Under the pieces are notes generated by a model. It was not told the DNA's origin. It did not search any database and worked only from the letters and a program-made list of their open reading frames with translations. From a virus, in the IMG/VR virus record IMGVR_UViG_3300002231_000783, positions 1-34,802 of that record: a stretch of DNA of 34,802 nt. The stretch is one strand, 5' to 3'. Made by a program: the position numbers and the translations under genes. Position 1 is the first letter of the stretch. Each line of letters begins with the position of its first letter. Positions 3,613 to 31,916 of the stretch are shown here, piece after piece.

Positions 3613-3929
3613 TGAGCAACTTCCCCGAGAACAGTTTCGTAAGGCTTGTCGCAGAGGACCACCTAAAAGACATCGACTTCGAGGTGGAAACCCAAGCTGG
3701 GCTGATTGAAGAGCCGCTCAGTAGCTCAACAGATGTCAAATACATAATTGGAATGACCTTCGTTACTGGAGATAGAGCTGTCCATGTAAAAATGGAGAGC
3801 GAAGCAACTGCAATGACGTTTCCTCCTGAGCTTCTCGATGGCGTGGTGCCTGACGTTTTCAGGAGAATTTCGATAAGTGGCTGCGACCTTATGGTCAAAG
3901 CCCTGGAAGGGGTACTTGAGGATGAGTGA
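3612..3929 (+). CDS. Hypothetical protein between exonuclease and RecT, 105 aa
   Basis: I do not recognise this protein. It shares its first base with the exonuclease stop codon (TGATG) and overlaps the RecT start by 8 bases, so it is surely co-translated with both. It is acidic, soluble and predicted mixed alpha/beta, with no cysteine cluster or nuclease motif. In related phages this slot can hold a single-strand binding or recombination accessory protein. Nothing in the sequence proves that here. Confidence 0.65.
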   Translation: MSNFPENSFVRLVAEDHLKDIDFEVETQAGLIEEPLSSSTDVKYIIGMTFVTGDRAVHVKMESEATAMTFPPELLDGVVPDVFRRISISGCDLMVKALEGVLEDE

Positions 3930-6837: not shown

Positions 6838-7170
6838 TCACTGTTCCTCTGGAACTCGAATCGTATTTTCCAGAGCTTGTACGCGACCCTTCAACAGATT
6901 CACCTCCTTGTAAATGTCTAGAAGAGAATCCGAAAGCTGGGACTTCACGATCAACTCAACATCATCTCGAGTCAGCATTGATCTATGAATGGTCCGCAAC
7001 GTGTCCCGGTTCTCCTGGCTGCACTCAGCGTTCCTTGACACTACAGTCTGTATTTTGGTGACACGCTCTACTCCAATTGCAACGAATGTCAGGATGACGG
7101 CACCAAGGCCAAGGCTTATGCCGGTCTGCTTAGTCATCCAGGCAGGGCTTGATTCGTCACTCTCGGTCAT
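6838..7170 (-). CDS. Single-pass membrane protein with coiled coil
   Basis: The 110-residue protein has a polar N-terminus, a transmembrane helix at about 16-36 (GISLGLGAVILTFVAIGV) and a long heptad-rich region (about 50-105) predicted to be coiled coil. This is the plan of inner-membrane spanins and of XhlA-type phage membrane proteins. It overlaps the preceding large virion gene by ATGA and precedes the other small membrane genes, so a lysis or envelope role is likely. No endolysin accompanies it in this window. Confidence 0.55.
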   Translation of the reverse strand: MTESDESSPAWMTKQTGISLGLGAVILTFVAIGVERVTKIQTVVSRNAECSQENRDTLRTIHRSMLTRDDVELIVKSQLSDSLLDIYKEVNLLKGRVQALENTIRVPEEQ

Positions 7171-8855: not shown

Positions 8856-8899
8856 GCGTTGAAGTTTGATCTCGTCTTCGAGGGTTGCAATCTGTCTTT

Positions 8900-11194
8900 T
8901 TAGGTCCTGCGATCTTTTCTATCGACCAGAGGACTGACTTCTTGCCTCTCTAAGGCTTTAAGACTTCTGGCAAGGCCTCGGCGAGATTCCTGCATGCTCT
9001 GTATTGAACGCCTCGCTTCTGATCGGATCTCAATTGCCTCGTCCATTTCGCCCATGAATCTAGCAATGTTGTCGATACCGACCTCTTCTAGGTTGCGCGA
9101 TAAGCGAATCGAGTGCCCGAGAAGGACAGCCTGTGCCTCGTCGGCAAGATCCTGCAGATCTCTGACTACGGCTTCCGCCTCTTTCGGGGTTACGCCCCTC
9201 TCAAAAAGACCGTTTACCGTTTTCCTAGAAGCGTCAAGCCTTTCCTTTAAGCTCTGCATCCTTCCCCTGGGATCTGACTGCCTTTGGAAGAAGTCTGACA
9301 TCGTCAAGTCAGGGAGCACAGAGCGAGCCAATCTGGCCTCAAGCTCCGCCACGTTCTTAATCATGTATGGGCGAATGAACCGCTCATCGATCTTCAAGGA
9401 TCGAGCAATCAAAGAACTCTGGAAGCTGCTGACCTCGCCAGTTGCTGGCGACCGAGATAGGTAGTTGTCCACAATTGATCTAGCAGTGGTTTCAAACTCA
9501 TCCTGGTCAATCTTGCGGAGGGCATCCTGAAGTTCTGCGATCTGCCCCAAAAGAAACTGCTTGTGGGCTTCATTGTCTGCAGCCTCCGCTTGACTACTCA
9601 AGGCTGTAATCTCTTGCCTGAACTCTGGCAGCAGCTCTTCTTTCCGCAATTCCAAGCCCCGCGTAACATCCTTGCGGAAGGATTCGATATTGAGCCTAGC
9701 ATAATCCTGGTCAATAACCCGAGCCAAGTATTCAGCATCTAGTGCTGTGAGAAGACTCTCTGCACGACCAGGAGTAAGGCCTAGTCGCGACAAGGCTCCT
9801 GCGCTGTCTGCTGTGCGGAATATGACTTCTGAAATCTCCCTATGCAAATCAGCTCGCTTATCAATAAGAGCAGCAAGTTCTGGCTTGTCAGCTAGCTTTG
9901 CAAATACCGTGTCGTCATTGATACCTCCTCGCCAAACAGACTCCCCAACCAACTCGAGGTATTCGTCTTCAGAGATATCACTTTTCCTGAACAGCTTGCT
10001 GTTCTCTTCGTAAACTGAATTGGCGAGCATTCGTTTCCGGGTAAATATCGCCTCATTCAGGTTGACTAATGATTGGACTGACGGTCCCTTCGGTCCTTCA
10101 GTTGTAAGGAACTGACGATCAAGCGTTGAGTTTATCAGGTTAGAGATGGGGTTTTTAGATCGGGCAAGACGCTGTGATGGAGTGAACGCAAACTTCATGA
10201 CCAGCCGAGTAAGTTTGCGGTCAGCCCCTATGATCTTCGCCGTGCGAGGACTCACACTCTCAACAGCCTCCAAAAAGGCACCAGCAAGCGAGTCCTCCTG
10301 TTCTAAAGTAAGGTCACTCCCATAGAAGTCATCGTCTACAGCTTTAGGTAGAACATCCTCCCCACCCTCTAGGTGCAACTTCCTACTCTGCTGCTTATCT
10401 GAAAAGTTATCTAGAGCAAGACCTAGCTTGCTAGTTGGATCTGCCAACTCTTTGGCTACTATCTCATTAGTCTTGCCTACTACGTCCGTGACGACTTCGG
10501 ACCCAAGTTGCAATGTTCTGCCAACGGAAGCACCAGCTCCTCCAATAATGGACGAAAAGAGACCGGCCCCGACGACATTCGCTATAGCTTCTTCATTAGT
10601 GCGGAACCGCTGCTTCTGAAGTAGGACAGTCTCTGCTATGGCTTGAGTGACGACACCTTCAGTCCCGACTCGAGCCGCTGTTTTCGCGACGTTTATCTTT
10701 GTTGCTGCTTTTCCAGCTTTAGCAACAAGCCCAGCAGTCCGAGCCGCTGTTCCAATTGGAATGAAGCTCTCTGGGGAGAGAAGTCCAGCTGGCAAGTAAA
10801 CTGCCAAGGCTCTCCCGAATCCCATATCCTCAAGAATCCCTCGGTCCCGTAGCTCACCGTCAATGCGATTCTTTATCGCAGCCAACTCACCAAGGCTCCC
10901 CGCCCTTTCTAGCTCTGGGAAGAGATGCCGATACTGGTCATAAGCACCTATAAATGGTTCGGGATCAAAGTCCGGGTCATCTTCGAAAACAGGGGTCGTC
11001 TCAAACAGCGGAGCTATCGAGTTGACGAATAAGTTCTCTTGCCTAAAAGCAGCCCCTAGTTGTTCTCCAAACGAATATCGAGGAGTAGGCTGCGGAAGAA
11101 GCCTAGCGCGTTCTAAGCTTGCAAAGGCTCCAACTCTTCCTTGCTGCTTCCTAAGAGACTCAAAATAAGCTTCGCCCTCTAAAAGCGGCATCAC
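8900..11194 (-). CDS. Internal virion protein (gp16-like), N-terminal part (frameshifted)
   Basis: This 764-residue frame begins MMPLLEGEAYFESL and contains a hydrophobic Ala/Gly-rich region at about 130-240 followed by long helices and coiled coils. It ends at a TAA in the middle of a coiled coil. The other frame continues it into the 562-residue product at 7167-8855. I see no lytic transglycosylase motif at the N-terminus, unlike T7 gp16. It overlaps the previous gene by four bases (ATGA). Its place after the gp15-like gene and the combined length support the gp16-like assignment; sequence identity to gp16 is not evident by eye. Confidence 0.65.
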   Translation of the reverse strand: MMPLLEGEAYFESLRKQQGRVGAFASLERARLLPQPTPRYSFGEQLGAAFRQENLFVNSIAPLFETTPVFEDDPDFDPEPFIGAYDQYRHLFPELERAGSLGELAAIKNRIDGELRDRGILEDMGFGRALAVYLPAGLLSPESFIPIGTAARTAGLVAKAGKAATKINVAKTAARVGTEGVVTQAIAETVLLQKQRFRTNEEAIANVVGAGLFSSIIGGAGASVGRTLQLGSEVVTDVVGKTNEIVAKELADPTSKLGLALDNFSDKQQSRKLHLEGGEDVLPKAVDDDFYGSDLTLEQEDSLAGAFLEAVESVSPRTAKIIGADRKLTRLVMKFAFTPSQRLARSKNPISNLINSTLDRQFLTTEGPKGPSVQSLVNLNEAIFTRKRMLANSVYEENSKLFRKSDISEDEYLELVGESVWRGGINDDTVFAKLADKPELAALIDKRADLHREISEVIFRTADSAGALSRLGLTPGRAESLLTALDAEYLARVIDQDYARLNIESFRKDVTRGLELRKEELLPEFRQEITALSSQAEAADNEAHKQFLLGQIAELQDALRKIDQDEFETTARSIVDNYLSRSPATGEVSSFQSSLIARSLKIDERFIRPYMIKNVAELEARLARSVLPDLTMSDFFQRQSDPRGRMQSLKERLDASRKTVNGLFERGVTPKEAEAVVRDLQDLADEAQAVLLGHSIRLSRNLEEVGIDNIARFMGEMDEAIEIRSEARRSIQSMQESRRGLARSLKALERQEVSPLVDRKDRRT

Positions 11195-14760: not shown

Positions 14761-17499
14761 CTATCTCCCGTGCGTCACTTGAAAGTTCAACCCAGCAACT
14801 TCGAAGTAGTAGGGTGGTGTGTGGACAATAGGAATCTCATGCATGGTCCCGAATGTCCCAACAGAAACAACTTTTCTCCACTCAGTTATTGCGTCGATCG
14901 CGGTCGCCGGGTTCGAAGAATTGGGTATCGATACTCCTGGCGGCATAAGACTGCCACCAGAAACAGTCCCCCCAATCGACTCCCGCAGCAAAACCAAGAG
15001 ACTGGCTACGTTTTCCAAGCGCCCCTGAGTATCGCCCTGTCCTTCAATTGAGAAGTGGGGGATCAGTGGCACTAATTTAAATTCAATCTCCCTGCCCAAC
15101 AGGGCTCTATCGGGAGTAAATCCTGCATCGGCATAAGTGACTTCTCCAGACGAGCTGACTGCGAAGTTCCCAAGGAAAACATATGCGTCAGAGGCGGTCT
15201 CCCTTAGCATCAATTGAGCGTTGTATGTAGCAGGCAAGTCCACCAAAATAGCTCCAGCATCAAACGTGGTAGATGTTGGGGACGGGTCTGGAACGGTCGC
15301 GTCCATTGCGAAATCTGGAGTCATTCGCTCAATCCATCGAGTCTCGGTTCCCGCTGCTGATGCGCCTCCTGTGAAGAACCGACGTACAACCCATAGCTCG
15401 TCTGTTTTGATATTGACACCGTCTGCGCGAACGGCAGTGATTGACTCAATCGTGGATGTATCGGTTGCTGTACCTGTATCTTTTGGCCAAGACGGTTGAG
15501 TAAATCGGGACCAACCAGCCACTCCGTTGAGCCTCCAAATCGATAGCGCGTACACAAGATTATTGGAGTCTCTGACGTAGACGATCTGCGACGGTGAGCC
15601 GACATAGGCTACCTCTTCAATCACAATGTCTTCGAAGATGTGCTTCGCCAAGTCTGTTAGGTCTGGAGACTGATAGCGATTAAGCTCGTCTCTAAAGGTC
15701 ATCTCTCGAAGACCTTTTCCCCCACCGTCAACGAACACTGCTGAGTTGTCTATCAAGACTGGCCGGATGTTTCGACTGCCAATCCCGCTTTGCCTTTCGA
15801 CGGCAAGATTGGACGCAGTAATTGGTCGCCCGCCTATCATGAATTCCGAAGTGGCGGTTCCAACCAAAAGATCTGCAGCACTCTCCATCCATGTAACCCG
15901 GCCACCCATAGGGTCAGAGATATCAAATGCGATCGAGTCATCGTCTAGCGACCCTGGAACGAAGTCTTCCGAGTCAAAAACCCTCGAGGCTACTACGCGA
16001 GTTGGCTTTTCTTTGTATCCACCAAACCAAACACGACCCTGGTGGGTCGTCCCGCATGCAGGAAACCCGACCGAATTGGATTGACCCAAGCCCCATTGCA
16101 TTGACGGACCAACGTGAGCCAGAGTCTTCACCACTCTGGCTGTGTAAACGGTTTCAGTTGAACCCGGTCCAGCTGTTTGGTCGATACCAGTAAGGGCCAC
16201 GATCCCGCCATTGAGATGAACGGTCCCACCGATTTCTACCGAACCGTCAATCCTGTCAAACGTCGTAGCGTGGCCTTCGGGAAGCCAGCGCAAATCGGTC
16301 CCGGCAGAAATCGCGTCTGGAAGAAACCCTTCTTGTGAGTAAAGCGTAATGCTCCCAGAGGAGGCACTTGGGCTAATGGGATGCTTGCTCAGGTACGGTC
16401 GCTGATCTAGGAATTCATTTGTTGGAGTGGCGGCGTTTGCCGCTAAGGCAAATAGCTCTAATGTATGAAGATCGCCAGCCGATAAAAATGGCCCTGGCCC
16501 GAGCCGGGCAACCGTAATCTCTTTTGCCCCACTAACTGCCGTCACAAGGTAAAGGACACCAAACAACGTAATTGGAAGGCCGATCCAGTTTACTTTTGCA
16601 TCCACACCACCAGTCCAAGTCACAACAGTCGTCGTGTTTTGAGTGGATGAGCTAGGATTGATACTGACCAGGAAGGTTGTCCCGGTAGAAGTGTACGGTC
16701 CAGTCCAATCCTGTAGGTCTTCTCCGACCGTCCCATAAATAGACGTGCCGTCCATCCTGAATGGAGACTTATAGTTGTCTGTCCTTATCCATGTACCGTA
16801 AATGTTTGTGTCTGGGTTGGTGGATTCAGCGCCACCGATCCTCCAAAAAGCCCCCTCGTCTCTCTTGTCAAATAGGGGCTGATCGAATTCAAATTGCGTC
16901 CCAGAGATGACTGACAAGTTCGCCGCGACTTGGTGGTCCACAATTCTAGGAGTAGTTGCCGATGGAGGAGCTATCCCATACTCCCAACGCTCATCCCCAG
17001 AGTCTCCGATCTGGCGCTCCATGAAAAGCGTCGGTCGGTCTGGGTGGCAAAAGAATATGCGCTCATTGTCTTGGAACGCATAGACATTTGGCAGCTGGGA
17101 AGCTGTGAAGTGATGAAAATGCCCTGCGGTTGACCCGAAAGAATCAAAAGGTCCATTCGCCTTATTGTCAGCAAAGTTTATGAACTGCCTAGTTGTGGCG
17201 TCAATAACTCGAACTTGCCGGGACGTAGTATTTAGATCCACAGCATCGTCATCCTCCGAGACAAATTGAATGACGAATTGCTTTCCCTTTGCGAAATAGA
17301 AAAACAGACGAGCCGGGTATCCAGAAGTGACATCTAGTACGCGCTCTGTGCCGTATCTCTTTCGGGCTGCGCCCGTAGGGGTCAGCAAGGCGTTGACAAG
17401 CTCTCGGCACCCGCTTTGGTATTGCTGAGACGAAACTATCCCGTAAACAGACGGGGAGACTTCGCCGCTCGCAAAGGATTGCTGTGCTACCCAGACCAT
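14761..17499 (-). CDS. Tail nozzle protein (gp12-like tail tubular protein B)
   Basis: The 912-residue product begins MVWVAQQSFASGEVSPSVYG, then a Y-Q-S-G-C-R-E-L-V-N-A-L..P-T-G-A-A-R-K-R-Y-G-T segment. That opening is characteristic of the large tail protein of many podoviruses (S-F-A-x-G-E-x-S-P-x-x-x-G; N.....P.G....R.G). The rest is strand-rich, as expected for a beta-propeller-like nozzle. It follows the adaptor and precedes the gp13 position, matching T7 gene order. Length is a little above T7 gp12 (794). It starts at ATG after AGGGAG. Confidence 0.82.
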   Translation of the reverse strand: MVWVAQQSFASGEVSPSVYGIVSSQQYQSGCRELVNALLTPTGAARKRYGTERVLDVTSGYPARLFFYFAKGKQFVIQFVSEDDDAVDLNTTSRQVRVIDATTRQFINFADNKANGPFDSFGSTAGHFHHFTASQLPNVYAFQDNERIFFCHPDRPTLFMERQIGDSGDERWEYGIAPPSATTPRIVDHQVAANLSVISGTQFEFDQPLFDKRDEGAFWRIGGAESTNPDTNIYGTWIRTDNYKSPFRMDGTSIYGTVGEDLQDWTGPYTSTGTTFLVSINPSSSTQNTTTVVTWTGGVDAKVNWIGLPITLFGVLYLVTAVSGAKEITVARLGPGPFLSAGDLHTLELFALAANAATPTNEFLDQRPYLSKHPISPSASSGSITLYSQEGFLPDAISAGTDLRWLPEGHATTFDRIDGSVEIGGTVHLNGGIVALTGIDQTAGPGSTETVYTARVVKTLAHVGPSMQWGLGQSNSVGFPACGTTHQGRVWFGGYKEKPTRVVASRVFDSEDFVPGSLDDDSIAFDISDPMGGRVTWMESAADLLVGTATSEFMIGGRPITASNLAVERQSGIGSRNIRPVLIDNSAVFVDGGGKGLREMTFRDELNRYQSPDLTDLAKHIFEDIVIEEVAYVGSPSQIVYVRDSNNLVYALSIWRLNGVAGWSRFTQPSWPKDTGTATDTSTIESITAVRADGVNIKTDELWVVRRFFTGGASAAGTETRWIERMTPDFAMDATVPDPSPTSTTFDAGAILVDLPATYNAQLMLRETASDAYVFLGNFAVSSSGEVTYADAGFTPDRALLGREIEFKLVPLIPHFSIEGQGDTQGRLENVASLLVLLRESIGGTVSGGSLMPPGVSIPNSSNPATAIDAITEWRKVVSVGTFGTMHEIPIVHTPPYYFEVAGLNFQVTHGR

Positions 17500-17508
17500 T
17501 CGTACTCC

Positions 17509-18162
17509 CTAATAGAAAGCGTCGTGGATTGTGTAATCAATGACCGTCGTCCTCGCCCCAGATTGGGAATCCGTTCTACGAGCATTTCTTCGGGCTATCT
17601 CCGCTTGCTGCTCAAGCAAGTTCACGTCTGCATTCGACGAACCAAGATCGCTCGCCATATGAACTGCGAAAGTGATCGCCATCGCCCAGCGCATATCCTC
17701 TGGCAGATACTTATCAATGTCACAGTCATGAACTTTAAATGTGTAGTCCAGCGTAGCGGACGTTTCATTGGTCAAGAGACAAAGAGCGCCGTCTCCGTTG
17801 TCGTTGAAAACAACTTGCTCAGTCCAAAGGCCAAGACCATTCGCTGACTTTGTCCCTGGACGGTTTTCCTTGCCATTCAACCTCAAGCTCCTAACCCATT
17901 CCGGCGTTAGGTTGTCGAGTCGATAGGCATACGACCACGGCCCAGTGGGGTCCACATCGCCCGGCGTGACCGTATCTTGATAGCGGACCAAATCCACTGT
18001 GGTGTTTGCGCCATTCCACATATGGTCCCGAAGGAATGTCCCCTTGAAAGAATCCCAATTAGCTGCCATCGCAACCGCCTGGGGCACCGAATCGGTTGTA
18101 GCGGAAACGGTCTCAATTCCGAGCTTCGTCAACGCTACATTCCAAATGTCAAGTTTGCTCAA
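17509..18162 (-). CDS. Nested tail adaptor (gp11-like), candidate internal start
   Basis: A TTG at 18162-18160 is preceded five bases away by a perfect GGAGG (18172-18168) and opens exactly at the adaptor domain (LSKLDIWNV). The product would be 217 residues, close to T7 gp11 (196). It is in the same frame as the giant upstream protein, so the adaptor could be made both alone and as a fusion. Adaptors assemble as a dodecameric ring between portal and nozzle, so twelve copies with 1300-residue extensions seem unlikely. This favours use of the internal start, or a lost stop codon upstream. Confidence 0.55.
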   Translation of the reverse strand: MSKLDIWNVALTKLGIETVSATTDSVPQAVAMAANWDSFKGTFLRDHMWNGANTTVDLVRYQDTVTPGDVDPTGPWSYAYRLDNLTPEWVRSLRLNGKENRPGTKSANGLGLWTEQVVFNDNGDGALCLLTNETSATLDYTFKVHDCDIDKYLPEDMRWAMAITFAVHMASDLGSSNADVNLLEQQAEIARRNARRTDSQSGARTTVIDYTIHDAFY

Positions 18163-21100
18163 GTATGCCTCCAATGTGCAAAGGTCCGCGCTGACTGACT
18201 CGGCTTCGCTGATGGTCGCCTGAATCGTTCCTGCCGCAATTGGAACTTCCAATTCCGAGGAAGCCGTACTGTCGGGGATAGGAATGATTTTTCTTGTTCT
18301 CAAAAGTACCGGGTTTCCGGCACCACCTGCGCCGCCGCTTCCAGATCCAGAAGCACTTGCAGAAGAACTCGGTGTCCCGACAAAGGATCTGACGCGACCA
18401 ATTGAGGGGGGATCTTCCGTAGCAAACGAAGGCAAGGGGCTGCCGGTATTAGAGAGTCCAGGGATAACGACCATTCCAGCTTGCTCAGTAGCAAGTGAAT
18501 TGACGGTTGGCCCTGTAGCTGCTAACGGCTTCTCAACAGCTGCGATCAGAGGAGCTTCTGTAGAGCCCGGAATAAAAAGAACAGATACAGCCGAGAACAG
18601 CACATTAGTTTCTATTCCGATGTCGCCCAAACCATCCGAAAGCTGCGGCGGGTCAAGATCTGATTTCAACCCTCGGATTAGCTCGTGAGAGGCCGGAAGA
18701 CCCTCATATGAAATAGTCCAATAAAGCACTGAATCGCTGGCATACAAGTCGGCGTCCCTGGCCAATACTGGAGGAAGCTCGTCAGACGCTGCCAAATCAG
18801 GATTCCCAGCGTTTCCGAGGATTACGTCCTTACCCGTGATCAAGAATGGCCTATTGTCTGCCGAGGCTGCGTCTATGCCTGGATCAGTAGCGGCAAGGGT
18901 AAGACCTCTAGAGGCCACTACTAGATCGTCAGCAGATATGCCTTCAGAGGGGACTTCCGCATTTGTGATCCCTAGATCTCTCAGTACGGTTGCAAGCGTC
19001 TCTGAAGATTTCACAAACAGCGGTGAATTAGTGTTTGATAGGGCGACTCCCCCGGCAATATCCATGATTGGATTATTAGCTGTGCTGAGAGAGTTTATTT
19101 CGTCATTGGTGGCAGGCAAAGCAAGCTCTCGAGCTACTGGCAGAGCAAGCTCATCTGTGGCACCAACGAGCAGGGAGTTATCGTTTGCAAGAAATGCTGT
19201 TCTGTCTGCGACAACAAAAACGTCCGAAGAAGAAGAAAGTAAAGGGTTCCCGACATTTGAAAACGCAATTTCTCCAGCAACAGACAAGGTGGGGAACGGG
19301 TTATCGGAAGCCGCATTTATGCCCACTCCAGTTGCGACATAATCTAGGCTCAGGGACATCCCGGTCTCGCCATTTTTAGAAACAGCTACGACGTTGACAT
19401 TGTTGCTCAATCCCAGGGTGAGGTCTATTTGTCCTGGGCTGTCAAAGCTGGCAGACTCTGATGGAATTGCGAGGTTTGCGAAATTGGTCTGGCCGATAAC
19501 ATCAAATGAAGAGATCTGACTAGCAACGGAGTTATTGTTGGGGTCTTCCGTGGTGAGCGCCAAAGAATCGAATCTGAAAACAAGATCGTCATCACTTGTC
19601 TGGGCAAGGCTAGGACTAAAATTATTCCTCAGATCCGCCACTCGGTCCAAAGCCGCTATTGTTTCATCAGAAGAAGCATCTCCTGGCGTTAAGAAGTTGG
19701 AAAACGGAACGATCCCAGCGATTGTCAGGCTTGCAAAAGATTCAGTGGCGGCAGCTTCGTTTGTTGCAAGTGAGCCAACCGTCGATATGACTCTATCGGA
19801 ATCGAGACGTATGAGCGCATACCTCCAGTTGTCATAAACATTAGAGGCTATTTCAGCTGTAACATTTTGGCTCTCAATGAAAACAAAATCATCGATCGCA
19901 TGGAATGTCGCTAAGGCATCGTCAAAAATAATCTTCTGCAAAGAATGCTCGTTTGCGGTGGTATTTGAACTAGACGCTACGAGCGATCCGTCAAGATAAA
20001 GACGCATGCCCTGAATAGTATCAAAGGTCGCAATAATCAGATTTGACCGCGAAGGATCGACAACGGCATTTGACGTTATCGAAATCAAGCCCCCAGCGTC
20101 TGTTCGGCGCTCAAAGACCACCGCGCCAATAATGTTCAGGCGCAGATTCCAAATGTCGCCAGATAAATCAGACGGCTTCCGAACAATTCCAGCCGAGCTA
20201 AGGCCCACTTGGTTTAGCCGATCCACAGAAACGATTATGGTAAACGGATCGACTGAAAGTCCAGGGTTCCCAGCATTGCCATCTGCCACTACGAGGGTCT
20301 GATCGCCCTGGCTAAAGCTTATCATGCTCCCTAGGTCATCATGAGGAGCACTGGAATCGATCAAGTGTGGCTCAGTAAATGTGGTCGGAGATTCTACCAC
20401 CTCGAGATTGGCCGCACCTGCGATGTTGTCGATGTAGTTTGTTCCGCCAACGTCTAGAAAGCTTTGGAATTCATACCATAGCTCAATAATACCCAGCTTC
20501 TGGACTTCTGCATGCCAGCCTATCTCCTCGTTTGAGCTTGAATCTCCGTCTGCACTAGTGGCGGAAAACACTAATGTAGAACCCAGGTTCGCGATCTCAC
20601 TAGAGATCGTGTTTTCTATCTCTAGGATGGTATACAGAGAAACGATCCCAAATGTCTCCAAAACTGGTGGGACAAGTTCTCCTGAGTCTGCATCAATAGC
20701 GGCAGATGTTGCCGACAGCTGAACTGTGATGCCAAGGAAGGGCGCGGCCTCCAGCGACTCCGAAAGGGAGTTTTCGACATCGTTAAGGAGGCCGCGCAAT
20801 GGAAGGTTAGTTACGTCATTATTTGAGCTACCGACCCCAAGCGTCAAATCTACAGGAAGCATTGAAATTGCGTTGCCAAGAATCGGGTCCAGGCTTGTCG
20901 AGATCGAAGTTGAGTCTTCCACGTCATTCAACAGCCCTCGAACTCCAATGGCAACAGGATCGATTTCTCCCGAAACCGAAGAACTTGGAGTTCCTGAAAT
21001 CCCTTGCTGAACAATAATCTCTGGATCGATTTCGTTCGCAACGGCATCGCTAAAGCTATCTTCCAAACCTCTCTGTATCACCGTACCAAGATCGTCTTCA

Positions 21101-22140
21101 TCGGAGGAGGAGAGGCTTTGCTCAAAAACATTACGAAGATCAACAACAACGCCACCAACGGGGACTAGTATGGGAGAGGAGTCATACCCCTGCCCAGACA
21201 CATTCGTCGCTGTCCCATCAAAATCAGAAACAAATCTTCCGACATGGTCATACGCAGAAGCGAGCGTTCCTGCTGGCTCATTGAAACGCATGGCGTTCAC
21301 AATGTTTGACCCAACGTCTTCGCTGCCTTCTGACGGGGTATCTGTGATGTTGTTCGCCCGGACGAATATATTTCTTCGACGCTCTAGTTCTGAAGGAGTC
21401 GGGGGGTCTCCCGGTATCGGCTGTGGATCAAACCATGGTGTCCAAGTTCGAAGCTCCGCGAAACCGCCATTCCAATAGCTAGACGGGACAACAGTAGTCC
21501 CATCTGGCTCCGTCCTTGTGCCTAGAGCTATTCTGTATTCTGGGGTGGTGAAGTCATAAGTACGAAAGCCCATCAGCTTTCTTGAGTTTTGAAACAACCC
21601 ACCGATTGAGCCGAGCGTGTCTGTCCCAGAGTATTCATATGGCATGTGGTCTGCCTGGCTAATCGTGCCATTGGCAGAAACTCCCACCCGGCCATGATAG
21701 ATATGCCAACGCCCATCTCCTATGGTTCCCTCCGGGCTTGGAGCTTGGTCATCTTCATATTGAAGAACTGAGTGCCACCAAACTCTTGGCAATATCGCAT
21801 TCGATATCGGGATATGGACGGCATGTGGAGTTTGGAATCCGCCGTCAGCCCACTCCCAGGTAAGCGTCGAGAACTCCGAGTCAGACTGGGTAAAACTGAT
21901 TCGCTGGAGAATACCACCGCCAATAGACGCCTTTACGTCTAAAAGAGTTTGCCCAGACAAATTCTTGGTGTCATTGACAAACCAGAAAATCTCCAAGCAC
22001 TTCCTAGCTAGTGAAAACCCATCGAAAAAGCTGATGGGAAACCACCCAGAGCCGGATGAACCTGCTGTCGTTATGTAAGCAGGGGTGACAGAGCTATCAT
22101 CTGTCCCAATGCATCTAGGGCTTAAACTAGGCACGACCAA
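17509..22140 (-). CDS. Giant fibre/lectin-like protein fused to tail adaptor (gp11-like)
   Basis: This single 1543-residue frame joins unrelated modules. Residues about 30-300 look like a LamG-type lectin sandwich. Residues 335-560 hold acidic Ser-rich repeats, including two R-G-L-L-N-D-V-E segments (401-408, 449-456). Residues 570-775 look like a second LamG-type domain (an M-R-L-Y-L-D-G-S-L strand near 712). Residues 780-1250 hold degenerate repeats with an S/G-N-x-G/N-N/S-P core. A Ser/Gly linker lies at 1255-1276. Residues 1327-1540 are a complete tail adaptor: LDIWNVALTKLG, a W..F...F-L-R-D-H-M-W-N segment, W-S-Y-A-Y-R-L, and a final DSQSG helix. Normally the adaptor is a separate about 200-residue protein. 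The start is TTG, with only a weak Shine-Dalgarno site. Confidence 0.75.
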   Translation of the reverse strand: MVVPSLSPRCIGTDDSSVTPAYITTAGSSGSGWFPISFFDGFSLARKCLEIFWFVNDTKNLSGQTLLDVKASIGGGILQRISFTQSDSEFSTLTWEWADGGFQTPHAVHIPISNAILPRVWWHSVLQYEDDQAPSPEGTIGDGRWHIYHGRVGVSANGTISQADHMPYEYSGTDTLGSIGGLFQNSRKLMGFRTYDFTTPEYRIALGTRTEPDGTTVVPSSYWNGGFAELRTWTPWFDPQPIPGDPPTPSELERRRNIFVRANNITDTPSEGSEDVGSNIVNAMRFNEPAGTLASAYDHVGRFVSDFDGTATNVSGQGYDSSPILVPVGGVVVDLRNVFEQSLSSSDEDDLGTVIQRGLEDSFSDAVANEIDPEIIVQQGISGTPSSSVSGEIDPVAIGVRGLLNDVEDSTSISTSLDPILGNAISMLPVDLTLGVGSSNNDVTNLPLRGLLNDVENSLSESLEAAPFLGITVQLSATSAAIDADSGELVPPVLETFGIVSLYTILEIENTISSEIANLGSTLVFSATSADGDSSSNEEIGWHAEVQKLGIIELWYEFQSFLDVGGTNYIDNIAGAANLEVVESPTTFTEPHLIDSSAPHDDLGSMISFSQGDQTLVVADGNAGNPGLSVDPFTIIVSVDRLNQVGLSSAGIVRKPSDLSGDIWNLRLNIIGAVVFERRTDAGGLISITSNAVVDPSRSNLIIATFDTIQGMRLYLDGSLVASSSNTTANEHSLQKIIFDDALATFHAIDDFVFIESQNVTAEIASNVYDNWRYALIRLDSDRVISTVGSLATNEAAATESFASLTIAGIVPFSNFLTPGDASSDETIAALDRVADLRNNFSPSLAQTSDDDLVFRFDSLALTTEDPNNNSVASQISSFDVIGQTNFANLAIPSESASFDSPGQIDLTLGLSNNVNVVAVSKNGETGMSLSLDYVATGVGINAASDNPFPTLSVAGEIAFSNVGNPLLSSSSDVFVVADRTAFLANDNSLLVGATDELALPVARELALPATNDEINSLSTANNPIMDIAGGVALSNTNSPLFVKSSETLATVLRDLGITNAEVPSEGISADDLVVASRGLTLAATDPGIDAASADNRPFLITGKDVILGNAGNPDLAASDELPPVLARDADLYASDSVLYWTISYEGLPASHELIRGLKSDLDPPQLSDGLGDIGIETNVLFSAVSVLFIPGSTEAPLIAAVEKPLAATGPTVNSLATEQAGMVVIPGLSNTGSPLPSFATEDPPSIGRVRSFVGTPSSSASASGSGSGGAGGAGNPVLLRTRKIIPIPDSTASSELEVPIAAGTIQATISEAESVSADLCTLEAYLSKLDIWNVALTKLGIETVSATTDSVPQAVAMAANWDSFKGTFLRDHMWNGANTTVDLVRYQDTVTPGDVDPTGPWSYAYRLDNLTPEWVRSLRLNGKENRPGTKSANGLGLWTEQVVFNDNGDGALCLLTNETSATLDYTFKVHDCDIDKYLPEDMRWAMAITFAVHMASDLGSSNADVNLLEQQAEIARRNARRTDSQSGARTTVIDYTIHDAFY
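18160..18172 (-). promoter_or_regulatory. Internal Shine-Dalgarno and TTG start of adaptor
   Basis: GGAGG at 18172-18168, CATAC spacer, TTG at 18162-18160. It is as strong as the best start sites in this operon, although it lies within an open frame of 1543 codons. In the frame shifted by one, ACT-TGA would overlap the TTG as TTGA, the same overlap style used by neighbouring genes. Confidence 0.6.
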
Positions 22141-22735
22141 AAGGCTTTCGCTTTGATTTTAAATCGACGTGGTAATGCGTCTTACCTATGACTCCAGCTT
22201 TTGTATCTGTTGAAGATGGTCTTCCCCTTACATAAGCGTTGGCCCAAAGCTCGTGGACAATCTCAAATGACTGCTCCCAATGTTTGGGGTCTTGCCAAAT
22301 GGTTGTCTTCAGATCTACATACTCCTTCGATATGTCTGCGTCATCAGGGCTTACGAATTGCTCAAAGGGGCTCAGTGCCAAATTTGCTGCAAAATTAGCT
22401 ACGGTTGAATTTGGCACTAGCGACCAAGTCCCAGTATTCGCGTCAGGAGGATCTCCGCTTACGTTGACAGCGTAATAAATCGCCGCTTCTACTTTTATAG
22501 TTCGCTGCCAAAGCTGACGACCTGATGTGGCCTTTAGATAAACTCGATGGTAAAGGTCTGTCTGGTCATCCAGAGAAAGGGCGTCACCTGGACCTTCGAT
22601 CCGATACCCAGTCTTCATGGGCTCTCGTATTGCGATCTCATGGGTGCGGCACAAAACTCTGCCACGCATCCAGCGCGAAGCGGAGCGGCCATATGGGTTA
22701 CCAAGTGGCCTGAATCTAGCTGATCCCCAACCCAT
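22127..22735 (-). CDS. Hypothetical virion protein, 202 aa
   Basis: I do not recognise this protein. It has an ideal AAGGAGG Shine-Dalgarno site four bases before its ATG. Residues 60-200 are strand-rich with conserved-looking aromatic positions (IYYAVNVSG, WSLVPNS, HWEQSFEIVHELWANAYVRG), and the C-terminus is basic. It ends 14 bases inside the giant fibre gene. Its place among fibre genes suggests a tail or fibre-attachment protein. Confidence 0.6.
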   Translation of the reverse strand: MGWGSARFRPLGNPYGRSASRWMRGRVLCRTHEIAIREPMKTGYRIEGPGDALSLDDQTDLYHRVYLKATSGRQLWQRTIKVEAAIYYAVNVSGDPPDANTGTWSLVPNSTVANFAANLALSPFEQFVSPDDADISKEYVDLKTTIWQDPKHWEQSFEIVHELWANAYVRGRPSSTDTKAGVIGKTHYHVDLKSKRKPFGRA

Positions 22736-22744
22736 GAGCCCTCC

Positions 22745-24130
22745 TTAAGCGAAGATCATGAAGCGGTCGCCGTCTGATGGAGCGACATTCAATGAATCAA
22801 CCGTAAGAGTTTTTGTTGAATCAACGTAATCTCGCACTACAAACCCGCGCAGCTTTGCGTCCCCATCAACAAATACGCCGACCTTATCAATCAGCTGATC
22901 GTCGTTTGTCGTTGGTATCCCTGTCGCGTTCCAGCTAGTTTGAGATCCTCCGCCGGAAGTTATCGTTGTGTCTATCGTTGAATCCAAAATCCTTTTCCAC
23001 TTGTCTACCGGATCTGACTCCCCGCCAATTTGTGTCAGGTTCACCCCGGTATCCTGAACAAGAGTGACGGCCCCACCCGAGTTATCAATCACCGATTTAG
23101 AACCCCGGCTAGTGACGGTCCCCCCGGTGCAGCTAGAGTCGATAGTAAGCTTTCCAGTCCCAACCACGAGAAGCGTATTAGTGGCGTCCATATTGGTAAC
23201 GGTGAGTTCCCCGGAGAATTCCAGAATCTCTGCTAGAACATTATTAGTAGAGAGGTCTATCGTCGAAGTGGTGCTAAATGTTGTCACCACATCTAGTGTG
23301 ATGGTCCCGGCAACATTAGGGGTCCATATGCCGATGATTTGAATGCGCTTTCCATAGACCAGCGGCACCGTCCCAGTAACTGCCCCATCAATAAGCTTAA
23401 CTGAAGATGTCGCCCCCCATGTGCCCGACAAAGCGCAGTTTTGATACAGAGTATCAAGCGAGTGTTGGGAGTTCCCTGTTACTGTTGGTGTGCTACCTAC
23501 AGTCTTCCCTAGGCCTAAAATCTCAAGCTCGCCAGGATTGGCCGTCAACGTCAAGTCCGACAGCAACAGAATTTTGTCCAGGCCAGTGTTTCCAGCAAGC
23601 GTGATAGCGTCGGAAAAAGAACTCACCGGATTATTTGGCAACCCATGTGTCCCAATCGTGGTCCCAGCTGAACCTGAGCTGTCGTACCAAATGCCTGCTA
23701 ACGGATATAGTGTCCCGATAGACACTTCGTCATCCATTGCATCATTAGTAATTACGTTGCTAGCCATGCTCTGAACGCTTGCAGAGACGTTTGCAACATC
23801 CAAATCCAGCTCAATCGTCGCGGATGCGTTGCCATAAGTAATTACATGCAGAGCCGTCCCCAAAAAAGTTTCAGTAGCAGTCACATCATCCACAACGATC
23901 GTAACACGTTCAGCAGAAAGCTCTGCGGCTGTGAGGTCTAGAGAGTAGATGCCGTTGCCTTCGTTTACCGGAGTATTCGTAGTGTTGGCAGACGCTCCCC
24001 CGTCCTTGACAATCTTTGTATCGCCAACAGCAATTGTGGCGCTTGGCTGCAATGTTTCGCCTGTCACGGTATAGAGGACAAACTGAATGGTTGCGGCGGT
24101 ATTGTATTTCAAGAAAAACGGCCCTTGCAT
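22745..24130 (-). CDS. Fibre or tailspike protein, probably beta-helical
   Basis: The 461-residue protein is rich in Thr, Ser, Val and Gly. Residues 1-110 include a G-N-G-I-Y-S-L-D-L-T-A-A-E-L-S-A-E-R-V segment, which I recall from many phage tail or decoration proteins. From about 165 to 340 come short strand-turn units typical of a right-handed beta-helix (for example LDKILLLSDLTLTANPGELEI). The C-terminal domain (345-461) looks like a compact cap. No catalytic residues can be assigned. It probably binds the host surface. Confidence 0.65.
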   Translation of the reverse strand: MQGPFFLKYNTAATIQFVLYTVTGETLQPSATIAVGDTKIVKDGGASANTTNTPVNEGNGIYSLDLTAAELSAERVTIVVDDVTATETFLGTALHVITYGNASATIELDLDVANVSASVQSMASNVITNDAMDDEVSIGTLYPLAGIWYDSSGSAGTTIGTHGLPNNPVSSFSDAITLAGNTGLDKILLLSDLTLTANPGELEILGLGKTVGSTPTVTGNSQHSLDTLYQNCALSGTWGATSSVKLIDGAVTGTVPLVYGKRIQIIGIWTPNVAGTITLDVVTTFSTTSTIDLSTNNVLAEILEFSGELTVTNMDATNTLLVVGTGKLTIDSSCTGGTVTSRGSKSVIDNSGGAVTLVQDTGVNLTQIGGESDPVDKWKRILDSTIDTTITSGGGSQTSWNATGIPTTNDDQLIDKVGVFVDGDAKLRGFVVRDYVDSTKTLTVDSLNVAPSDGDRFMIFA

Positions 24131-25982: not shown

Positions 25983-26462
25983 CTAGTCAGCGTTCTCGAC
26001 GAAGGTAGTTCCAAGGTCGTCAACGCGGACAGCACCCATGAAAGCGCCGTGGTAAACAAGCTCAGTGTTACCGCGTGAAACCGCTTGTCGTACCCAGGCT
26101 TCTTGCTGACCAAGGCCTGTGACCATTCCGTTTGAATTCCATGCAAAGACTCGGTGCCCAGCAGGAGTAGTTGTGGCCGGGATCTCCGTACACATGATCC
26201 ACTGAGCGCCTAGCAATCGAGTAACTTCGCCGTCCATGAGGGGGCGCATTGCGTTGTAGTCACTTGACGTTGCTCTGTTCGTAGTGTCATTGAAGAGCTG
26301 CGCGACCTGCACTGGGTGAATTCCGACATACGAATCAAAAAAGGCATCGTTCTGCTGCAGGATGTTAATGAGTTCAATGGCTTTAGCCATGCTAAAGCCA
26401 GTCGCACTCGCGCCCGTGGTTCCATCGGCTTCCAGGTTACGTGGTCCCGGTAGTGCCAGCAA
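25983..26462 (-). CDS. Major capsid protein, C-terminal part (frameshifted)
   Basis: This frame carries the second half of the capsid protein. It begins to match around R-N-L-E-A-D-G and runs through a MAKAIELIN helix, an F-F-D-S-Y-V-G-I-H-P-V-Q strand, a W-I-M-C-T-E-I-P segment and the final strand H-G-A-F-M-G-A-V-R-V-D-D, typical of the C-terminus of HK97-fold podovirus capsids. The nominal first codon (TTG 26462) is inside the end of the other frame and lacks a proper Shine-Dalgarno site. It is a continuation of 26437-26964 displaced by one base. Confidence 0.75.
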   Translation of the reverse strand: MLALPGPRNLEADGTTGASATGFSMAKAIELINILQQNDAFFDSYVGIHPVQVAQLFNDTTNRATSSDYNAMRPLMDGEVTRLLGAQWIMCTEIPATTTPAGHRVFAWNSNGMVTGLGQQEAWVRQAVSRGNTELVYHGAFMGAVRVDDLGTTFVENAD

Positions 26463-26964
26463 AGGCTGCCGTTCCGCCGCCTTCTCCGAGGTTTACGTTA
26501 GCGTCAAACTCCGTAAAGAAGATCGAATCGAACTTTCGGCCCAATGCCCCAAGTACGTTTTCCTGGTATGCGCCGCCTGGAACCAAGGCGTTCAAGAGGC
26601 CAAGCGTCCCCATTTGGTCACGCTGGTCGAAAAATTCAGGATATTCCCAGTGCTGCGGTCGAATTACGACCGTTCGGATTCCGGTTTCAGCAGAAGCGGT
26701 TCCGCCGACATCGTCTCCAATGAAACCAGAGCGGGTGCGCTGCTGCACAGTCGCCTTGTTCCAGCGATCAATCCGCTTTTCGTAACCCTCAAGCTCTACT
26801 TGCCTAGCAGCAGTATTCGCAACAAGAGAGCGGGTTTGCTGCATTTCTTTTACCATGGTCTGCTCGTAAGCGACCTTCAATGCAAACAAACCAATTGGAG
26901 CGTCAGTGGATGCGCCTGGATGGGCTCCAGGTAGCGTAGAGGAAATATAGTCAGTGATGGCCAT
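26437..26964 (-). CDS. Major capsid protein, N-terminal part (frameshifted)
   Basis: This frame gives 175 residues from M-A-I-T-D-Y-I, with the R-T-V-V-I-R-P-Q-H-W-E-Y-P-E-F-F-D-Q-R-D strand-helix and the G-R-K-F-D-S-I-F-F motif (A/G-R-x-x-D-x-x-I in relatives) of podovirus capsids. It stops at TAA after G-T-T-G-T-T. Removing one base in ACCGGGACCACGT joins it to the next frame and gives 326 residues, a normal capsid length. A truncated 175-residue product could not form a capsid. It has the best Shine-Dalgarno site in the window (GGAGGTAG, six bases upstream), which is inside a hairpin (26971-27008). Confidence 0.78.
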   Translation of the reverse strand: MAITDYISSTLPGAHPGASTDAPIGLFALKVAYEQTMVKEMQQTRSLVANTAARQVELEGYEKRIDRWNKATVQQRTRSGFIGDDVGGTASAETGIRTVVIRPQHWEYPEFFDQRDQMGTLGLLNALVPGGAYQENVLGALGRKFDSIFFTEFDANVNLGEGGGTAAFAGTTGTT

Positions 26965-28442: not shown

Positions 28443-28729
28443 ACGATCTCCCTCCGCTCGACCTTGCGAGCCATCCCTTCGATGAACCAGTAGACCCGGC
28501 GCATCGTGTCCCTCTGTGCAATTGCGATAGGATCAAATGGGCACTCCAGTGTGCCCACTCTCCCGCCAAGAACAGTATCCAAAATCTCGAGACAACGCTT
28601 TCCTGTTGGGTCGGAAAACGTGTCCTCGCAAACCTTCTTTGCCTCTTCCCCGAGCTTCTTCTGTCTGTCTTGCTGGCGCTCCAGCTCGCGCCCATGCTCG
28701 AAGAAATCCCAATGGTTTTCCGCGCTCAC
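28439..28729 (-). CDS. Small portal-adjacent protein (Bbp19-like)
   Basis: The 96-residue protein has a charged N-terminal helix, then F-S-D-P-T-G-K-R-C-L-E-I-L...F-D-P...A...D-T-M-R-R-V-Y-W-F-I. This resembles the short Bbp19-like proteins encoded between portal and scaffold in many podoviruses (F..P.GR.VL..L.....F.P.......G.R.....I). Function is unknown but structural. It overlaps both neighbours by four bases. Confidence 0.6.
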   Translation of the reverse strand: MSAENHWDFFEHGRELERQQDRQKKLGEEAKKVCEDTFSDPTGKRCLEILDTVLGGRVGTLECPFDPIAIAQRDTMRRVYWFIEGMARKVERREIV

Positions 28730-30390
28730 ACTACTGGTCCTGTCAAGTCTGCGAGTCCTGCGCCATTACGGCGAGACCCCCCAGGACGCAATTGAACTTG
28801 TGTTTGCGCCTGCCCTGCGCGTTCGAGAAGTTGGGCGACACGATCGTCTGCAGCCTGATCGCCCCGCGCCTGCCTCTCTTGTTCAATGCGTTCAGCGTCT
28901 TTAAAGATTGGGGGGACATCTCCCAACCACTTTTCCATCTCTCGAAGTTTGTCGTTGTCGATATCAACTAACGCTTCAGGATCTCCCGTTCTTTCAAATC
29001 TCTGAAAACGTCGCTCTAGAAAAGCATCGACTCTCGCTAAAGACTGCGCCTTCATTGCAGTAAAGAAGGGGCTCGTGAATTCGAAATCAAGCTCCGCCTC
29101 AGGGTTTTCATTGATTAGACCCTGAAGCTCTGGGAGGGCTCCCTTAGAGAGCATGATATCTGTAATGTTCTCTACTAGCGGCGAAAGCTTCTCGTGAACG
29201 ATTGTTTGACTCGTTGAAGCCAAACGCGCCAAGGCCCGCGCCTGACGAGACCTCTCTGCTTCGGCACTACGAGTTTGCGCTTCCGGCTCACCAAGTACGT
29301 CTCCTAGGAATGCATCCGAGACAACCTTGTGCATATTGTCCGTCACAAGCTCTATCAACCCGAAGTCGGTGCCCGACCGAAGATACCCAGGCTGCACCTC
29401 CTTTGGTGGACGAACGACAACGTGTCCACCCGGAGTCAAATCCAAGGAGGCAATCTCGTCCTCTTCTGCCATAAACGGAGGATTCATTTCTTTGCCAAGC
29501 GCGATGAACTTCTGGCGTCCAATTTCGTTTGCGCCCTTCATGACCGGCCTTGCGATATGGCCTCGCCCACGGCCATACTGCTCTCCGTCCAAGACCATCA
29601 TTCTTGAGCAAATGTACGGATTGTTGGTGAATTGACCGGCGCGGATTTGTGCTGGGTGCTCCTTGTAGATCCAATGGCTGGCCCACGGTTTTATTTCACC
29701 GCCCTTCTTTCCCATCGTGTTTCGCTGCACAAAGTGAAGCACCTTCACCATGGTGAATGGTTGTTCTCGTGCGAGCTTGCTTAGGTGCGGGGGAATTGTG
29801 TCTCCGGGTCTTTGGAAAAACGAAACATGGTCTATTGCTGGTCTCTCGAGTTCTCGCACGACCATAAGAGGTCGACCGATATGGGAGAACACCCACCAGA
29901 CTCGAGAGAATGGGACTGGGTCAAACAGGAGCCCGCCAAAATCGTTTAACCCGGAAGCCCTCTCTTCATCATGGGACGTAAACAGGGTGGAGTTGCCAAG
30001 GACTCCCCAATCTCGTGTGTCTGTTTGCGCGGCAACGTAAAAATTAGAGTCCGCCAAAGCGTCGTGGACTCTCATGCTTGTTGCGTATAGCGCCTCTTCG
30101 GTTTCGACATCGTGTTCTAGCTGACCCTTGATCCGATAACGGACCCAGTCGCTTGAGGACGGATATAGAGTTCCGTTTAGCCAGTTGACGAATCTGTCTG
30201 ACTGTGCCACTCCAAATGAGTCGAAAAGTGGCTTCCGTCGTTCTCCTGGCGCGGAGCGGGTCGTAATGTCTCCACGGTATCGCATGAAGAGATCAGTAAT
30301 CTCCTGCATTGTCTGCTCGTAATTCTGCCGTTGGCCCTCGAGCCACGAGAACCTATGCATGAGCTTTTTGGGGTCAGTTGTAATCGGCAT
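28726..30390 (-). CDS. Portal (head-tail connector) protein
   Basis: The 554-residue product is a podovirus portal. The N-terminus has R...E.QR..YE...Q.I..L..RY-R-G, then D-S-F-G-V-A-Q-S-D-R-F-V-N-W-L-N-G-T-L-Y-P-S-S-S-D-W, the conserved early motif, and the middle has G-T-D-F-G-L-I-E. A Gln/Arg-rich C-terminus ends in a disordered tail. Portals form the dodecamer through which the terminase pumps DNA and to which the adaptor binds. It follows the large terminase gene with an eight-base gap and a GGAGA Shine-Dalgarno site. Confidence 0.88.
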   Translation of the reverse strand: MPITTDPKKLMHRFSWLEGQRQNYEQTMQEITDLFMRYRGDITTRSAPGERRKPLFDSFGVAQSDRFVNWLNGTLYPSSSDWVRYRIKGQLEHDVETEEALYATSMRVHDALADSNFYVAAQTDTRDWGVLGNSTLFTSHDEERASGLNDFGGLLFDPVPFSRVWWVFSHIGRPLMVVRELERPAIDHVSFFQRPGDTIPPHLSKLAREQPFTMVKVLHFVQRNTMGKKGGEIKPWASHWIYKEHPAQIRAGQFTNNPYICSRMMVLDGEQYGRGRGHIARPVMKGANEIGRQKFIALGKEMNPPFMAEEDEIASLDLTPGGHVVVRPPKEVQPGYLRSGTDFGLIELVTDNMHKVVSDAFLGDVLGEPEAQTRSAEAERSRQARALARLASTSQTIVHEKLSPLVENITDIMLSKGALPELQGLINENPEAELDFEFTSPFFTAMKAQSLARVDAFLERRFQRFERTGDPEALVDIDNDKLREMEKWLGDVPPIFKDAERIEQERQARGDQAADDRVAQLLERAGQAQTQVQLRPGGSRRNGAGLADLTGPVV

Positions 30391-30398
30391 CGAGTCTC

Positions 30399-31916
30399 CT
30401 ACGAGAAGAAGTCAAATTCACCCCGCGCTTGCGGAGTATTAAAAACCGAAAACCCCGCATTCTCACGGAGCCCCGGAGGCTTTGCGTATCGAAGCATCAT
30501 GATCGCCTTGTGAAGAGCATCGATCAGGTGGTCATCCTGCTTCTGCTTCACTTGCCCCTTCTCATGTCTGTACATTCTGATCTCTTCGAGCAGCTCCCTA
30601 CAATTCTGACTGATCTTTAGCCGTCCGGTTGCCATCCGGTCCTGAATCATCTCAATCGCAGTCATTACTGCACGGCTTTTTTTGTTCTCGTGGTCGTACA
30701 CAAATGCAGGGTTCTTCATCATTCGAAGCCCCATTTTTCTGTACTTCTCCGCAATCGTTCCACCAGAGGTCGTCGTTCCAAATCCGCGACCTCCGTCATG
30801 TGGCCATGCTACAGGAATCTTCGTTCCGCCCATAAGCTTTACCCGGTCGATGTACACGGGCGTGTCCAAATTGCTTGCTTTGTATTCGTCAGTCACATGG
30901 ACAACATCCGTTTCGGGCTCGATTACTAGCTTAACGGCTGCGAAGTGTCCGGTCCCATGAGGTAGGTCGAGGCCGATAACCTGCGGGAGATCTTGCCTCG
31001 CGTGGAATGGCGGCTCTACGATCATTCTGCGCGGATATGCGTATATCATTCCTGCGCCGCGACAGGGTCTACCATACAGACGTGCCTCTGCCTCTGGATG
31101 GTCCTTCCATCTCAACATATTGAAGTCATATTCTTCTTGCGTCAGATGGGTGCAGTCGTCGATTGTGTAAGTCAGCAAGCACATAAGGCCCGTCTCGTCA
31201 CGCTCAAACAAAAGATATGTTTCGGTATCGCCCAACAGCGGACACGCTGCAATCCAGATATAGCCGAGTGTTGCGTTTATCCGTGCTCGCATTTCGTTGT
31301 AGATATCATCAGCTGGCATCTCATTGAGGAAGATTCCATCCAGGGTGTATCCCTGTATTCTTCTCCAGCCCTTTGCATACCCAAAGAATCGGAGCACTGT
31401 TTTTCCTTGCACAACACCGTTTTCGTCGTGCCAGTCAATCAGCGCGTAATCGATAAGGTGCTCAGAGTTCCCGCGCAATGGGATAAGATCATCTTTCGCG
31501 TCATAGCACTGACCTGGAATCCAACCGTTTCCATAATCCCCAAACATACCAAAAAGCTTGTCGCAGATTTGGTCTCGAGTTGCTTGTGCTGTTTCGCCAG
31601 CCGCTGCGAGGTGTGGGGGTTTGGTGAACCTGGGGCCTTCCCATTCTGGTGGGTAAAGTCCCGTTGCGTGGATCGCAATCAAATAGTCAATGGTGAAGGT
31701 CTTGCCACCTACTTGGTTTGGTCCTGATAGCAAGATCTCATGTGCCTTGGGAGCTGTGTTCTCTCCGCCAGCAGCGCAAAAGTCCCACTGTCGTGGGTTT
31801 GGGGCAAAAAGGTCCATCCAGCGATTCGAAAGACGGGACGAAAGCTCCGTCTCTATAGCCAGCTCTTTCTCAAGCTCGCTTCGAAGAATCTCTTTGTTCT
31901 GCTCAGGCTGTGTCAA
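30399..31916 (-). CDS. terL: Terminase large subunit
   Basis: The 505-residue motor has an ATPase domain with a Walker A-like G-P-N-Q-V-G-G-K-T at 65-73, A-T-G-L-Y-P-P-E-W.G..F downstream, and a Walker B-like G-I-F-L-N-E at 194-199. The nuclease domain has G-L-D-L at 315-318, W-P-H-D-G-G at 371-376 and Q-D-D-H-L-I-D-A-L at 460-468. Two details are odd: an additional Gly in Walker A (relatives I recall have G-P-N-x-x-G-K-T), and N in place of the usual D in Walker B, with the catalytic E kept. It starts at TTG and overlaps the small-terminase gene by 14 bases. Confidence 0.9.
   Translation of the reverse strand: MTQPEQNKEILRSELEKELAIETELSSRLSNRWMDLFAPNPRQWDFCAAGGENTAPKAHEILLSGPNQVGGKTFTIDYLIAIHATGLYPPEWEGPRFTKPPHLAAAGETAQATRDQICDKLFGMFGDYGNGWIPGQCYDAKDDLIPLRGNSEHLIDYALIDWHDENGVVQGKTVLRFFGYAKGWRRIQGYTLDGIFLNEMPADDIYNEMRARINATLGYIWIAACPLLGDTETYLLFERDETGLMCLLTYTIDDCTHLTQEEYDFNMLRWKDHPEAEARLYGRPCRGAGMIYAYPRRMIVEPPFHARQDLPQVIGLDLPHGTGHFAAVKLVIEPETDVVHVTDEYKASNLDTPVYIDRVKLMGGTKIPVAWPHDGGRGFGTTTSGGTIAEKYRKMGLRMMKNPAFVYDHENKKSRAVMTAIEMIQDRMATGRLKISQNCRELLEEIRMYRHEKGQVKQKQDDHLIDALHKAIMMLRYAKPPGLRENAGFSVFNTPQARGEFDFFS

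Follow-up and report, generated by a model that had tools for sequence, protein, structure and literature searches.

An in-frame fusion of a tail adaptor to a long, repeat-rich arm, with a conserved candidate internal start, in a group of uncultured podoviruses

The window analyzed here is the whole of a 34,802-base virus record, whose structural genes form a podovirus-type block on the minus strand. The block encodes the terminase (30399-31916) and the portal (28726-30390), a protease/scaffold-like protein, the capsid, several small proteins, a 461-aa protein, a 202-aa protein, a very long frame in which a tail adaptor is fused to an N-terminal arm, the tail nozzle, and internal virion proteins. 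The gp12-like nozzle (14761-17499, minus strand) matches phrog_376 with an E value of 1.9e-67, is 52 to 57% identical in the relatives described below, and begins 9 bases downstream of the fusion. The 202-aa protein (22127-22735, minus strand) is conserved at the same place in three other lineages (34 to 45% identity) and has no match in known phages. As for the 461-aa protein (22745-24130), its C-terminal 340 to 390 residues are 43 to 50% identical in relatives, and it is possibly another fibre-like part; the counterpart in contig L001 has 907 aa and aligns with it twice, as a duplication would. Beyond the internal virion genes, the plus strand carries a recombination module (2707-5223) made up of a nuclease of the YqaJ type and an annealing protein of the RecT type.

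The long frame occupies positions 17509 to 22140 of the minus strand, 1543 codons without a stop, exactly where a first-pass annotation of this DNA had placed an in-frame fusion. Where does its translation begin? The open reading frame listing starts it at TTG 22140 (1543 aa), which is probably not the true start. GTG 22134 is the likely one, giving a long form of about 1541 aa (17509-22134, minus strand). It is favoured because it overlaps the stop of the upstream 202-aa gene (GTGCCTAG), with comparable stop/start overlaps in relatives (ATGCCTAG in L001, GTGGCTAG in L007), and because the peptide that it opens, (M)PSLSPRC, lines up with MPSLEPRC, the relatives starting with ATG or GTG. The pairing of GTG 22134 with the anti-Shine-Dalgarno sequence amounts to -0.1 kcal/mol, which is to say that it has almost no Shine-Dalgarno sequence. 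The long form therefore probably depends on coupling to the upstream gene, and translational coupling between the two genes is likely, judging from their arrangement.

The C-terminal part of the fusion is, by profile, a gp11-like tail adaptor, as the first-pass annotation had recognized. Residues 1328 to 1529 match positions 3 to 175 of the 190 in the phrog_394 profile (E = 3.4e-18), and the same profile is matched in the relatives L001, L006, and L007. Among solved structures, a profile built from the four adaptors matches the Carin-1 connector protein, 8ck1_E (E = 0.002). A structural model of the domain is of low confidence (pLDDT 46); its helix-helix-beta-helix-helix order agrees with the description of T7 gp11 (PMC6702177). 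With this model, Foldseek placed podovirus adaptors at the top of the solved matches, though at a TM score of about 0.2: Carin-1 (E = 6e-5), LME-1, and T7 gp11 (entries 8ck1, 9efk, and 7box). The position next to the nozzle gene, directly upstream of it, is also that expected of gp11-like adaptors. No second, free-standing adaptor was found in the window or its relatives, records that may be incomplete; the single adaptor is always fused.

The other 1320 residues form the arm, carried on the N terminus of the adaptor. At its far end is a domain of about 345 to 349 aa (21086-22134, minus strand), 36 to 39% identical in relatives, which is probably a lectin-like domain of the concanavalin-type jelly-roll class; Foldseek with a model of it (pLDDT 47) returned PL7, pentraxin, LamG, and galectin folds. 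The middle (18274-21085, minus strand) is a variable region of about 970 residues with one insert. Autocorrelation of the arms from all four lineages shows that it is filled with degenerate repeats of 22 to 26 residues, which bears out the repeat regions noted in the first pass. The insert, at residues 590 to 800 (19741-20373, minus strand), is LamG-like: it matches Laminin_G_3 near residues 630 to 730 with an E value of 1.8e-5 and 25.4 bits, below the curated cut-off of 27.6, and the arm of L006 has a clear match (E = 6.6e-17, 62.5 bits). The LamG-like character that had been assigned to this protein thus applies to the insert, at a score under the cut-off, and probably to the N-terminal 345 residues, by jelly-roll matches of low confidence. 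No T7 gp17-type N-terminal fibre docking domain was matched anywhere in the whole fusion protein.

How well is the arm conserved? Between the window and L001, identity is about 20% in the repeats and 80% in the adaptor; the N-terminal domain is about 37% identical to its relatives. The arms thus evolve fast, and their inserted domains differ from lineage to lineage in the manner of receptor-binding parts. In L007, an arm domain at about residues 967 to 1592 (L007:6715-8592), which matches nothing in Pfam or the PDB, seems to be broken up by an inserted LamG-like segment. In the same arm, inspection by eye suggested a polysaccharide-lyase-like domain, which neither Pfam nor the PDB supports and which we do not claim.

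A search for relatives yielded four more contigs, belonging to three other lineages, in which arm and adaptor are likewise fused in frame: L001 and L002 (1625 aa), L006 (2001 aa), and L007 (1947 aa). Their adaptors are 80% (L001 and L002), 67% (L006), and 67% (L007) identical to that of the window. No relatives were found among known phages, using either the adaptor or the N-terminal domain, or among bacterial genomes, and a wider search by nozzle, portal, and adaptor C terminus gave no more lineages with the junction. All of the sequences are metagenomic, and the comparisons below cover four lineages, including the window. The lectin domain of L006 has a frame of its own, of 485 codons (L006:2200-3660), ended by a single TAA that is followed immediately by ATG in the same frame; the arm is therefore divisible while the adaptor remains joined to the rest of it.

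Could the fusion be an artefact of assembly or sequencing? The window gives some grounds for asking, as it shows two apparent frameshifts relative to its relatives. The major capsid gene (25983-26964) lies in two overlapping frames of 175 and 159 codons, whereas relatives have one of about 325 codons; this looks like a frameshift in the contig, whether an error or real. Similarly, a phrog_342-like internal virion protein (7167-11194) is split at about 8900-8855, where the relative G002 is open across. Single bases in the window are therefore not to be trusted without the relatives. For the fusion, however, the relatives agree. The first-pass annotation had considered that a stop might appear between 18163 and 18300 in related genomes; none is there, the four contigs being open across these positions. 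Two of them, L001 and L002, are 99.7% identical and come from different metagenomes. The same fusion in three other lineages makes an artefact extremely improbable, and the adaptor-arm fusion is genuine in a small group of uncultured podoviruses.

The first-pass annotation missed a further feature at the joint of arm and adaptor, a conserved Shine-Dalgarno sequence and TTG at 18172-18160, in the same frame as the fusion. The whole element, a putative internal ribosome-binding site and start, reads TTGGAGG CATAC TTG (18160-18174, minus strand), with GGAGG at 18172-18168 and the in-frame TTG at 18162-18160, five bases on. A core of TTGGAGG-NN-TACTTGAGCAA is nucleotide-identical in all four lineages, in each of which the codons leading into the adaptor are TTG GAG (GAY or GCA) TAC TTG AGC AAR. 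Within viral_contigs, the pattern is confined to contigs carrying this fusion. Translation from the TTG would give an adaptor alone, of 217 aa (17509-18162, minus strand), and two alignments place a natural adaptor start here. The phrog_394 match begins at residue 1328 with profile position 3, and in five free-standing adaptors (HTVC024P, HTVC028P, BPP-1, and two others) the start methionine falls within one residue of the internal TTG. In three lineages, the anti-Shine-Dalgarno energy of this TTG is the best of all in-frame starts (71, 119, and 89 of them), and in L006 it ranks second of 81, behind the gene's own ATG; that the host's ribosomes use such sites is assumed from the window's other genes. 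In the window the value is -9.3 kcal/mol, versus the -0.1 of the long-form start.

Is it the DNA of the element that has been kept, or simply the peptide? Codon choice speaks for the DNA. The aligned 3' part has 112 informative codons with an invariant residue, and at only 18 of them do all four lineages use the same codon. Among the six-fold codons with an invariant residue, 3 of 26 are codon-identical, and all three (two TTG and the AGC) are in the junction element. The codons TTG, GAG, TAC, TTG, and AGC have stayed unchanged, and there has been drift in the codons for Leu, Ser, and Glu nearby. The joint probability of this five-column pattern is 2.6e-8 under codon usage and 4.9e-7 under empirical rates, for four lineages and a pattern that was seen first and tested afterwards; allowing for a scan of about 250 columns, it is still below 0.001. 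Codon shuffling gives a p of 0.00015 for the 7-codon stretch; by the same means the longest run of identical nucleotides, 11 bases, is not significant (p = 0.06). RNA structure around the internal start is nothing special, with z-scores of 0.1 to -1.0.

The junction peptide just upstream, E-x-E......C-x-LEDYL (18163-18273, minus strand), leads from arm to adaptor. Its two E residues and its C are kept in all four lineages, and their codons vary synonymously, which speaks for translation of the junction as well. One might propose proteolytic processing, with the long protein as a precursor from which a protease releases fibre and adaptor separately. The phage does encode a protease/scaffold-like protein (phrog_458, E = 1e-13), and arm and adaptor differ greatly in evolutionary rate. 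Cleavage would, however, leave the conserved codons of the start signal unexplained, and while the junction peptide is conserved, so is its DNA; we regard such processing as improbable.

A second use for the element would be a programmed +1 frameshift at GGAGG, carrying ribosomes into the TGA within TTGA and so freeing the arm. All four lineages do have the +1-frame TGA (T-TGA-GC), and an upstream Shine-Dalgarno sequence is typical of prfB-type shifts. Yet the zero frame has no stop codon at the site, and TAC, by our reasoning, would re-pair poorly to ACT. The upstream +1 frame, moreover, is open for just 46, 10, 26, and 13 codons and encodes no shared peptide. A frameshift of this kind is thus very improbable. 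An overlapping upstream gene ending at the same TGA was also considered and was ruled out, the upstream +1 frame being short and unconserved.

What, then, might the element do? The reading we favour, and hold to be somewhat better than evenly probable, is that one gene gives rise to two nested in-frame products, a plain adaptor and an arm-bearing adaptor, which enter a shared ring. The short product would be an ordinary gp11-like adaptor of about 217 aa, initiated at the internal TTG 18162. The long product would begin at 22134 through coupling to the upstream gene, read through the junction, and so carry the N-terminal 1320-residue arm ahead of the same adaptor. Both would become part of the dodecamer that sits between the portal and the nozzle, some of whose subunits would thereby hold a covalent arm, predicted to bind glycans on the host surface. 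We infer the production of both forms, the mixed ring, and glycan binding from the sequence features set out above. The plain form is probably the commoner, since the internal start of the window, although TTG is a weak start codon, has by far the better ribosome site. A more specific version, in which the dodecamer consists mostly of plain subunits with an armed minority made by read-through, and translation sets the number of arms per virion, could equally well be right or wrong. The first-pass annotation had suggested that each adaptor subunit, or a subset, would carry an arm. The fusion itself and the conserved internal start support that suggestion, with the qualification that the fusion may not be the sole product; at the level of sequence, the internal start is a concrete mechanism by which a subset could come about.

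The alternative is that all adaptor subunits are armed, the internal site being either a relic of a once separate gene or a Shine-Dalgarno pause that aids folding of the adaptor. The fusion is continuous in every lineage, as this would require, and there may be a precedent for heavily armed rings. In Vibrio phage phiVC8, a 74.1-kDa adaptor-arm protein is a main virion band, identified at full length by mass spectrometry; a role in recognition was suggested for it in PMC4802629, where the passages concerned do not term it an adaptor. A ring may therefore tolerate arms on all of its subunits, and at least with arms of 550 residues a large number is sterically possible. A relic, though, would be expected to drift, and the five codons of the element have not, unlike the Leu, Ser, and Glu codons that flank them; nor does a pause site need a well-spaced TTG at the very point where homologues start. 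On balance, we think it unlikely, if still worth serious thought, that every subunit is armed.

If two nested products are indeed made, arm number would simply follow from how often each of the two in-frame starts is used, with no separate gene. There is also a practical consequence: a gene of this kind may be annotated as "tail fibre" or as "lectin", and the adaptor then reported as missing.

Free-standing phrog_394 adaptors, such as Bbp14 of BPP-1, the "tail tubular A" proteins of HTVC024P and HTVC028P, and gp11 of epsilon15, along with gp11 of T7, share the profile or fold of the fused domain and likewise lie directly upstream of a nozzle gene. They are separate genes of about 180 to 230 codons, as adaptors of known phages usually are, whereas the adaptor of the window occupies the 3' end of a frame of 4.6 kb. 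In T7 (gp17) and Peru-2 (P2_41), host-binding arms are also found at the adaptor-nozzle ring, the fibres docking between adaptor and nozzle (PMC6702177, PMC13320782); for an arm attached to the adaptor, this would be a reasonable point of exit from the tail. Those fibres are separate trimeric proteins that dock noncovalently; the arm described here is joined to its adaptor covalently. That a single gene can yield both a plain and a domain-bearing version of a ring or tube protein is known from the major tail proteins of SPP1 and the 936 phages, which carry frameshift extensions, that of the 936 phages holding carbohydrate-binding modules (PMC6669499). There the extension is C-terminal and arises by a programmed frameshift. 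In the window the extension lies at the N terminus, and an internal start would supply the plain form.

The closest likeness is found in the Enhodamvirus group (phrog_9239; QH, phiVC8, VP5, and the related K292), where a phrog_394 adaptor and a long arm with a putative binding function are likewise one protein. It was stated in the first pass that adaptor and fibre are separate genes in known podoviruses; these vibriophages contradict this. In QH, phiVC8, and K292, the phrog_394 domain makes up the first 190 residues of a 741- to 750-aa protein and is followed by Ig domains and then a glycine-rich domain. The public annotations of the Enhodamvirus adaptor-arm (L060:6001-8232) are tail protein, tail tubular protein, or PE family protein. 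The arm is thus C-terminal in that group, of Ig and glycine-rich domains, and N-terminal in the window, of lectin-like and repeat regions; with the adaptor coming first, an internal start could not yield an adaptor alone there. The fusion has no match to phrog_9239 and no similarity to it in arm sequence. As the two kinds of arm are unrelated, building onto the adaptor has probably evolved at least twice, and arm number and symmetry thereby become directly testable. Adaptor-borne arms as such were thus already on record, though not under that name. In the literature searched, outside of which most subscription papers fell, no adaptor with a fibre on its N terminus is described. What is new here is (i) the N-terminal placement of the arm, (ii) its size and repeat build, and (iii) the conserved internal start. 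If the proposal is true, short tails would have a third means of carrying host-binding parts, besides trimeric fibres that dock and the arms at the C terminus of vibriophage adaptors.
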